A DNA stretch of 64,000 nucleotides, taken from contig NZ_BCMZ01000001.1 of the NCBI RefSeq assembly GCF_001485535.1, positions 620,001 through 684,000 of the forward strand, in the 5' to 3' direction. Under the pieces are notes generated by a model, which did no database searches, was not told the DNA's origin, and was given only the letters and a program-made list of their open reading frames with translations. The DNA is from Halobacterium sp. CBA1132. Its GTDB lineage: Archaea > Halobacteriota > Halobacteria > Halobacteriales > Halobacteriaceae. The position numbers and the translations under genes were made by a program. Shown one piece after another: positions 30,320-52,998 of the stretch (position 1 is its first letter; the number at the start of each line of letters is the position of its first letter).

Positions 30320-30394
30320 AGCGGGATGGGATAGCCAGGAGATTCCGCCGGGCTCATAACCCGGAGATCGGTAGTTCAAATCTACTTCCCGCTA
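30320..30394 (+). tRNA. Initiator tRNA-Met (CAT)
   Basis: A complete 75-nt tRNA. The acceptor arms AGCGGGA and TCCCGCT pair fully, with an A1-T72 first pair and A discriminator. The anticodon loop CTCATAA carries CAT. The anticodon stem CCGGG/CCCGG has the three consecutive G-C pairs next to the loop that mark initiator tRNAs. The T arm is GGTAG-TTCAAAT-CTACT. No CCA is encoded. A TATA-like CCTTAACTG lies about 30 nt upstream. Two extra copies of the 3' end follow downstream. Confidence 0.95.
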
Positions 30395-30396
30395 CT
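30371..30396 (+). repeat. tRNA-Met 3'-end repeat, copy 1 (inside the gene)
   Basis: This is the T arm plus acceptor 3' strand of the initiator tRNA, GTAGTTCAAATC then TACTTCCCGCTACT. It is the reference copy for the two downstream duplicates at 30506 and 30652. A tRNA 3' end is the usual crossover site of tyrosine integrases. Confidence 0.85.
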
Positions 30397-30505
30397 CCTC
30401 TGAAACTCACGCTCCACAGCGTCGCCTCCGTGCGACGCGTCGCGTGAGTTGCTGTGAGTTAGCGAAGTGGATTCGAACGAGAGAACCGAGCGTAGCGAGG
30501 TTCGC

Positions 30506-30577
30506 GTAGTTCAAATCTACTTCCCGCTACTTCCTGCGAACCACAAACCGCGGAGTTTCATCTCCGCGGTTCGCGTG
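30506..30577 (+). repeat. tRNA-Met 3'-end repeat, copy 2, with stem-loop
   Basis: It starts with 26 bases identical to the tRNA 3' end. It then continues TTCCTGCGAACCACA and a perfect 10-bp inverted repeat AACCGCGGAG/CTCCGCGGTT around TTTCAT at 30546-30571. The acceptor 5' half is absent, so it is not a tRNA gene. Confidence 0.8.
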
Positions 30578-30651
30578 AGCCTGTCGTCGCGGCGGATTTG
30601 AACCCTGCGAGGAACGCGCAGCGAGCGTAGTGAGCGAGCATTTCTCGCTTC

Positions 30652-30715
30652 GGTTCAAATCTACTTCCCGCTACTTCCTGCGAACCACAAACCGCGGAGT
30701 TCCATCTCCGCGATT
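30652..30715 (+). repeat. tRNA-Met 3'-end repeat, copy 3, with imperfect stem-loop
   Basis: GGTTCAAATCTACTTCCCGC, then the same TTCCTGCGAACCACA extension as copy 2, and the same stem-loop with one arm mismatch (30690-30715). Copies 2 and 3 are nearly identical over about 60 bases, so the larger unit was itself duplicated. Confidence 0.8.
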
Positions 30716-30756
30716 GCGTCCGTCTCCTTACCTGTGATCCACAGCGTCGCGTTCGT

Positions 30757-52275: not shown

Positions 52276-52998
52276 TTACGATGGCGGGAGGAGTTCCATG
52301 TTTCCGTGCTCGGCGTACGCGTGACAGCTCTTGCAGAGCGCGATGAGATTGTCGACAGTATGCGCGTTCTGCGGGTCGTCGAACGTCCGTACGGGTTTGA
52401 TGTGATGCACGTCCGGGTTCTGGCCGAGTTCGCGTGCTGTGGCCCCGCACTTCTGACAGCGGTAGTCGTCCCGTTCGAGCGCTTTCCGTCGAACTTCTCG
52501 CCACCGGCCGTTGTAGACGGCTTCCCCGTCCCCGTACTGGTCTGACATCCACGCGTTCTGGCAGTCGTTACTGCAGAACCGGCCGTGCCCTTGGCGTCTG
52601 TTGCATTCGAGGACCACCATCGGCTCGTCGCAGTAGTCACACGTCCGTTCGATTCGTTCGACGTCGACTGTTTCGGCGTAGGGAGTCCCGAGGAATTCGT
52701 CCGCCTCAGCGACGCAATCCGAACAGTAGACACCGTCCTTGTTCGAGGGATAGTAGTCGAAGGTGTCGCCGCACTGCTTGCAGTCGGTCGTCTCTTTGGC
52801 GCCGCTGTAGTTCCCGTTTTTCTCTCCTGCCTGTGAGTAGCAGTCGTCGCAGTACGTGCGCCGGGATTTCGGGTCGTAGAACTCGGTGCCGCAGTCGGCA
52901 CAGGTCCGGTTCGGGAGTGGGTCGCCGTGGACTTTCGTGTGGTGCTGGCGTGTCCCCTGCTCCGTCGAAAGCGTCTTCCCGCAGGTCGGGCAGTCCAT
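52276..52998 (-). CDS. C2H2-zinc-ribbon-HNH nuclease-like protein
   Basis: A 240-aa protein packed with metal knuckles. A C2H2 finger (C3, C6, H19 or H20, H24) comes first. Zinc-ribbon pairs follow at C33/C36-C50/C53, C73/C76-C92/C95 and C120/C123-C142/C146. The HNH core is C181/C184 with PDVHHIKPVRTF and NLIALCKSCHAYAE. The catalytic His is in DVHH. It is likely a DNA-cutting endonuclease. It lies 48 bp upstream of tRNA-Gln in lower-GC DNA and shares its strand. It looks like an acquired or selfish element. Target unknown. Confidence 0.8.
   Translation of the reverse strand: MDCPTCGKTLSTEQGTRQHHTKVHGDPLPNRTCADCGTEFYDPKSRRTYCDDCYSQAGEKNGNYSGAKETTDCKQCGDTFDYYPSNKDGVYCSDCVAEADEFLGTPYAETVDVERIERTCDYCDEPMVVLECNRRQGHGRFCSNDCQNAWMSDQYGDGEAVYNGRWREVRRKALERDDYRCQKCGATARELGQNPDVHHIKPVRTFDDPQNAHTVDNLIALCKSCHAYAEHGNMELLPPS

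Follow-up and report, generated by a model that had tools for sequence, protein, structure and literature searches.

Tandem copies of a tRNA 3' end behind an initiator gene

Downstream of an initiator tRNA-Met gene at 30320-30394 of this stretch lie two perfect repeats of the gene's nt 53-73. How did pieces of a tRNA gene come to lie in tandem behind it, and is the initiator special in this respect? We examined the locus in the window, the whole 64,000-nucleotide stretch analysed (G000:C1:620001-684000, where G000 is the Halobacterium genome that contains it), and compared it with other tRNA genes and other genomes.

ARAGORN called a tRNA-Met(cat) at 30320-30395, and the GGG/CCC anticodon stem of the gene is typical of initiators. 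A repeat search found three copies starting at 30371, 30506 and 30650 (spacing 135 and 144). Copies 2 and 3 share a 63-bp extension (97%; 30509-30571 and 30653-30715) with stem-loops at 30546-30571 and 30690-30715, and the 13-bp sequence TCCACAGCGTCGC occurs at 30413 and 30738, inside a 27-bp match at 85%. A preliminary description of this DNA had reported three tandem tRNA-Met 3' ends, and its coordinates, spacings, stem-loops and 13-bp repeat were all correct. It had overlooked the inverted copies of the tRNA tail and the recurrence of this arrangement at many other tRNA genes. All three copies have the core GTTCAAATCTACTTCCCGCTA in common, which corresponds to tRNA nt 53-73. Inverted partial copies of the tail precede the direct copies (30460-30478; 30592-30604), which makes every direct copy the right-hand arm of a long palindrome. 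The block is made up as follows:

30320..30394, + strand: initiator tRNA-Met gene, anticodon CAT (ARAGORN; cmsearch RF00005)
30374..30394, + strand: core, tRNA nt 53-73 (GTTCAAATCTACTTCCCGCTA; borders measured on 26 copies of the genome)
30404..30450, + strand: hairpin A of unit 1 (flank F), including the first 13-bp repeat at 30413-30425 (fold)
30460..30478, + strand: unit 1, left arm of palindrome B1, an imperfect copy of the tRNA tail in inverted orientation (sequence)
30479..30508, + strand: unit 1, inner hairpin of palindrome B1, with CGAGCGTAGCGAG (fold, alignment)
30509..30529, + strand: direct core copy 1 (repeat search, tail-copy scan)
30546..30571, + strand: hairpin A of unit 2 (repeat search, fold)
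30592..30604, + strand: unit 2, inverted T-loop arm GCGGATTTGAACC, non-cognate outside the T-loop (sequence, tail comparison)
30605..30652, + strand: unit 2, inner hairpin of palindrome B2 (fold, sequence match)
30653..30673, + strand: direct core copy 2 (repeat search, tail-copy scan)
30690..30715, + strand: copy of hairpin A 3' of the last core (repeat search)
30738..30750, + strand: second 13-bp TCCACAGCGTCGC (27-bp match at 85%)

Flank F also lies directly behind the tRNA in the relatives G010 and G011, both of which are without units. Judging from its match, the second TCCACAGCGTCGC (30738-30750) is probably a decayed fragment of flank F. The inverted arm of unit 1 (30460-30478) fitted its own tRNA best when compared with 15 other tails. 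The block at 30320-30750 is a two-unit array and an ordinary member of a widespread haloarchaeal family.

Structure of the units

Each unit runs from a spacer with hairpin A to palindrome B, which consists of an inverted partial tRNA tail, an inner hairpin and a direct tail. Units measure about 115-150 bp in this genome. Their median length including the core was 137 bp at 122 tRNA loci, which were chosen because of model matches, so that the fraction of them with units is no rate. In most units the left arm of the palindrome repeats part of the tRNA tail in inverted orientation; at the initiator locus this arm reads GCGAAGTGGATTCGAAC in unit 1 and GCGGATTTGAACC in unit 2. Testing whether inverted arms match their own tRNA gave a mixed result, clear in many units and unclear for unit 2 of the window. 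The top of the inner hairpin carries CGAGCGnAGCGAG, many family members have the asymmetric internal loop GTCGCAGC/GACCGTCT, and the conserved palindrome arm is GTTCAAATC (alignment A1). Hairpin A in the spacer is often perfect. The pairs of the inner stem show strong covariation, with two-sided changes in 17 sequences at each of columns 28/79 and 29/78.

Such folds raise the question of a function in RNA. Read-through transcripts from the tRNA might fold both hairpins and serve in 3' processing, in termination or as tRNA-like decoys. The predicted folds are strong, the asymmetric loop is conserved and the units always lie on the tRNA's strand. In enterobacteria, repeats linked to a tRNA gene (rtT) are also known to yield an RNA product, and an rtT VNTR has been described (PMC2658671). 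Against this, the mismatches of palindrome B comprised 64 G.U and 59 A.C, and those of hairpin A 10 and 27, counts that come from related units and are non-independent. Selection on folding of the sense transcript should raise G.U; as there is no G.U excess, the palindromes seem to be a feature of the DNA. In some species, moreover, the same tRNA has no units, and cmscan of 8 loci matched no Rfam family. We consider an RNA function very improbable.

Several direct copies carry an extra T-loop base, TTCACAATC in place of TTCAAATC, and this identical change is present at different tRNAs, namely Val gac (L142), Val tac (L135) and Arg tcg (L141); with the extra base, these copies would give no normal tRNA tail. 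A second insert family consists of double hairpins of ~55-60 bp inside or behind the T-stem copy, seen in this genome at tRNA-Ala cgc (L129), Ser gga (L153), Gly ccc (L130) and Arg cct (L144). These inserts end in TCAGTCCC or TCACTCCC, with TCCC on either side, and look like a palindromic mobile repeat of the IS605/PATE kind.

The same units lie behind many other tRNA genes

The preliminary description had called a start tRNA an unusual target. We scanned downstream of 40 scored tRNA loci and found a match to the gene's own tail of at least 17/22 within 700 nt at 16 of them. The following 700 nt gave such a match at 1/40 loci, and dinucleotide shuffles averaged 0.05. Positive tRNA genes have 1-4 units. 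When compared with all other tRNAs of the genome, the own tRNA was the best match for 25/25 copies. Alignment of 26 copies on the T-loop showed identity rising at nt 52/53 and falling past nt 73-75. Copies lie behind Asp, Phe, Val (three genes), Arg (two), Asn and elongator Met tRNA genes, as well as behind Tyr, Gly (three genes), Lys, Glu and Leu tRNA genes. At Ala(cgc) and Ser(gga) the tail copies are broken by another insert.

Searching this genome with R1, a covariance model of the palindrome, gave 39 matches at E<=0.1. Those with strong scores follow tRNA genes, on the tRNA's strand, and are not scattered at unrelated loci as copies of a MITE or SMR would be. Two strong matches that appeared to lie elsewhere adjoin candidate tRNA genes missed by the tRNA search, as reading of the sequence indicated. 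The same units follow many tRNAs, here and in nearly all sampled Halobacteria, and integration specific to the initiator was rejected.

At tRNA-His the palindrome and copy are 1 kb distant, beyond an HNH gene, a position for which simple insertion at a tRNA end is insufficient. Genes of one HNH-nuclease family were found in the window at 52276-52998 (- strand) beside tRNA-Gln, and at G000:C1:2261043-2261882 (- strand) beside tRNA-His. In 25 other genomes, an HNH relative follows tRNA-His at a distance of roughly 80-160 bp. Because the gene is a conserved neighbour of tRNA-His in those genomes and has a relative beside tRNA-Gln, it is not part of the unit, and we rejected it as cargo or mobiliser.

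The family is found in nearly all sampled Halobacteria

R1 matches at E<=1e-6 were present in 113/116 genomes of Halobacteria, covering 44/46 genera. In a sample of the phylum, 22/148 genomes had R1 matches; all 22 were Halobacteria, and no match was found outside the class. At 25 of the 29 class loci inspected, a tRNA gene with a cognate copy lay upstream, mostly 90-135 nt ahead. A Natronorubrum plasmid has one unit behind a full tRNA (Val), again with a cognate copy.

Some loci departed from the common layout. Behind tRNA-Thr(ggt) of G062 (L225), the unit tails fit tRNA-Asp and a Gly-like tRNA and are thus non-cognate. In several Halobacteria genomes the full initiator tRNA gene is present twice (L278-L290, L234, L237), and Haloferax gibbonsii has a plasmid-borne initiator tRNA gene with its own unit.

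Units are precisely present or absent in close relatives

We compared the initiator locus in 13 congeners and observed 0, 1 or 2 units, with variable number and spacing. The identical spacing in all relatives that would speak against integration was not seen. The filled and empty sites are precise between the close relatives G005 and G011, whose sister relation is supported by a tree of upstream DNA. At tRNA-Glu, a 114-bp unit lies between tRNA and flank in G005, and the flank follows the tRNA directly in G011. At the initiator Met, G005 likewise has a unit ahead of the flank that is directly behind the tRNA in G011.

The preliminary description had read the block as a scar of serial integration or a tandem attachment array. 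Part of that reading stands. The copies run from the T-loop to the tRNA 3' end, the extent expected from an integrase that targets tRNA genes, and at both the initiator Met and Glu genes one unit that is missing in the sister parts the tRNA from its old flank. This precise presence and absence would fit site-specific insertion at the tRNA end, but deletion between direct repeats leaves an identical trace, and the absence could also have arisen in that way.

Units also change in place and between places. Two tRNA-Glu units of this genome are 100% identical, and by their sequence are a recent tandem duplication. The palindrome of unit 2 of the window is 94% identical over 68 nt to G000:C1:1414419-1414486, behind tRNA-Leu(tag), and an initiator-Met unit matches an Arg(ccg) unit of another species at 96% over 78 nt. 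The palindrome is thus common to different tRNAs, and such near-identity indicates that it travels between tRNA genes. Two Haloferax gibbonsii strains have different units between the same two cores of a plasmid locus that is otherwise nearly identical. Since related chromosomes bear a similar unit, homologous exchange with another initiator locus could explain this swap, which counts against reading it as movement of a cassette.

In nearly every species, the tRNA tail and its direct copies share one T-stem type. The genome studied here and G005 have tRNA and copies of the CTAC type but have kept GTGG in the inverted arm; GTGG is fully complementary to CCAC, the T-stem type found in several close relatives. 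This pattern suggests that the tail and the direct copies exchange sequence and that the inverted arm does not. The concerted change fits core-to-core recombination and also gene conversion.

Could these dynamics arise from the palindromes themselves, with no recombinase? An ancient duplication of a tail might have spread, grown and shrunk through slippage, template switching at the palindrome and gene conversion between tRNA loci. The two identical tRNA-Glu units are what tandem duplication gives, and direct repeats of 21 nt around a palindrome are deletion-prone, which also counts for this explanation. The tRNA and direct copies of this genome and G005, which switched T-stem type jointly and left old inverted arms behind, resemble the product of gene conversion. 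However, palindrome dynamics leave unexplained both the cognate tails at many tRNAs with the same internal palindrome and the constancy of the borders (nt 53 and 73). We regard this explanation as rather unlikely.

Recombinases and possible parent elements

As the preliminary description had noted, no integrase lies in the window; tyrosine recombinases (PF00589) were absent from G000:C1:620001-684000. The genome has such recombinases elsewhere, and none of its PF00589 genes is beside a unit. In a search of the initiator locus in 116 genomes, no array had an integrase or an element of kilobase size between its copies. An exact search with the CTAC-type initiator tail gave a maximum distance within one array of ~270 bp, and those genomes with far-apart initiator tails that we read have two full tRNAs each.

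Larger integrative elements might nevertheless have left the units as scars of serial integration and excision at tRNA genes. Prophages of Haloquadratum, which also has small mobile repeats, leave tRNA duplications of 22-57 nt (PMC3119063), and partial tRNAs occur beside full copies in Haloferax gibbonsii (PMC7921747). However, no element was found between array copies in the 116-genome search, and the internal structure of the units is common to different tRNAs. Independent prophage deletions would not yield a shared internal palindrome, and this, together with initiator copies at most ~270 bp apart, leaves the large-element part of the earlier reading unsupported. In the one case of an apparent large element (G017; L209), the array lies outside it. 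A tRNA-Gly 3' piece that reaches back past the T-arm, and so is longer than the unit cores, is followed there by its unit array; this piece seems to mark where the large element, integrated through a longer core, has its right end.

The preliminary description had also suggested looking for the att core in haloarchaeal plasmids and viruses. The annotated attP cores of the SNJ2-type viruses examined are 13-15 bp long with no B-like palindrome nearby, and an SNJ2-type viral att scar was rejected as the origin of the units. We obtained no unit-like R1 match in SNJ2, Halfgib1, HHPV4, HRPV9, Humcor2, Harhisp1, LSV-48N or part of HF2, and in the viruses and plasmids searched the palindrome never occurred without an accompanying tRNA gene. 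Halovirus HF2 has a nearly whole tRNA-Thr, a probable attP; this truncated gene was rejected as a source, there being no palindrome at it. An SNJ2-type integrase of this genome (L166, G000:C1:728111-728641) has 48% identity to the SNJ2 virus integrase and is not beside any tRNA within the stretch read. We consider scars of larger elements quite improbable.

A pattern for a T-arm palindrome matched 8 viral contigs, and six of these gave clear scores with the model. None of the 8 shows the haloarchaeal inner sequence; a loose pattern for the inner motif gave chance matches only, and a strict pattern gave none. The prophage contigs have an inverted T-arm, a hairpin, and the T-arm and acceptor strand of tRNA-Met, and in one (L243) such a palindrome is separated from a tyrosine recombinase ORF by ~60 bp. 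We take them to be Bifidobacterium prophages, going by their IMG genome numbers. The assignment also drew on a report of Bifidobacterium-type prophages integrating at tRNA-Met 3' ends (PMC6109161). By analogy, not homology, such a palindromic site can adjoin a tyrosine integrase.

A model of attachment-site cassettes

Our best explanation, for which we see about an even chance, is that the units are non-autonomous attachment-site cassettes at tRNA 3' ends. As a DNA palindrome at the tRNA 3' end, a unit would keep the tRNA whole and shift the old flank to the right. Strand exchange in or next to the T-loop, at the start of nt 53-73, would insert or remove it, and arrays would grow and shrink through further exchange between direct cores. 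The agent would be a tyrosine-type recombinase acting on the units in trans, and insertion as well as loss would be site-specific. No recombinase was linked to the units among the PF00589 genes of this genome or in the viruses and plasmids searched.

More tentatively, and with rather less confidence than in cassettes as such, we propose a cassette system specific to Halobacteria. Here the tRNA gene would be a platform at whose T-loop gene-less hairpin units enter and leave by recombination, each with the tail of its host tRNA, continually re-tailing essential tRNA genes and driven by a putative host or class-wide recombinase.

If the cassette model is right, a large share of haloarchaeal tRNA genes bears a common small repeat family, which annotation, where it recorded the units, has listed as isolated partial tRNAs or as remnants of prophages. 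Many partial-tRNA fragments would find an explanation, and the several direct cores per tRNA would confound the calling of integration sites. The units would form a natural record of recombination at essential genes. Which enzyme inserts or removes gene-less units, and whether units renew the tRNA tails, would become testable questions.

Relation to known systems

We found no account of the unit family in the open literature, and subscription papers may hold one; the family is apparently undescribed so far. A review of archaeal recombinases covers tRNA att sites, tandem integration and the att site of the SNJ2 integrase (PMC8371274). Like the att sites of tRNA-targeting tyrosine integrases in SNJ2-type pleolipoviruses and other haloarchaeal elements, the units duplicate the 3' part of the tRNA directly, and as at attL/attR the tRNA is intact and the old flank displaced. 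Unlike SNJ2-type att sites, they have a core of 21-22 nt with a long palindrome and occur at many tRNAs at once, and unlike integrase elements they contain neither an integrase nor a kilobase element.

The SMR, MITE and PATE repeats of haloarchaea (PMC3119063) are similarly short, gene-less and hairpin-rich, with mobility inferred from strain differences. Those repeats are scattered, whereas the units are tied to tRNA genes and bear the local tRNA tail. The tRNA-Met site of Bifidobacterium-type prophages (L243; PMC6109161) shares the order of inverted T-arm, hairpin, and direct T-arm with acceptor strand, but it is a single copy beside a bacterial-prophage integrase, with an unrelated inner sequence.

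Integron attC arrays also consist of tandem units ending in imperfect palindromes around an exchange point, with precise gain and loss of units. The haloarchaeal units differ in being gene-less and in having a tRNA gene as platform; the integron R'/R'' boxes GTTRRRY and RYYYAAC are absent from them, and their conserved arm is GTTCAAATC. The rtT repeats of the E. coli tyrT operon lie in tandem behind a tRNA gene and contain its 3' end. In this they resemble the haloarchaeal units, although cmscan of 8 loci gave no rtT match in Rfam. The rtT repeats belong to one enterobacterial operon, whereas the units lie behind many tRNA genes across an archaeal class.
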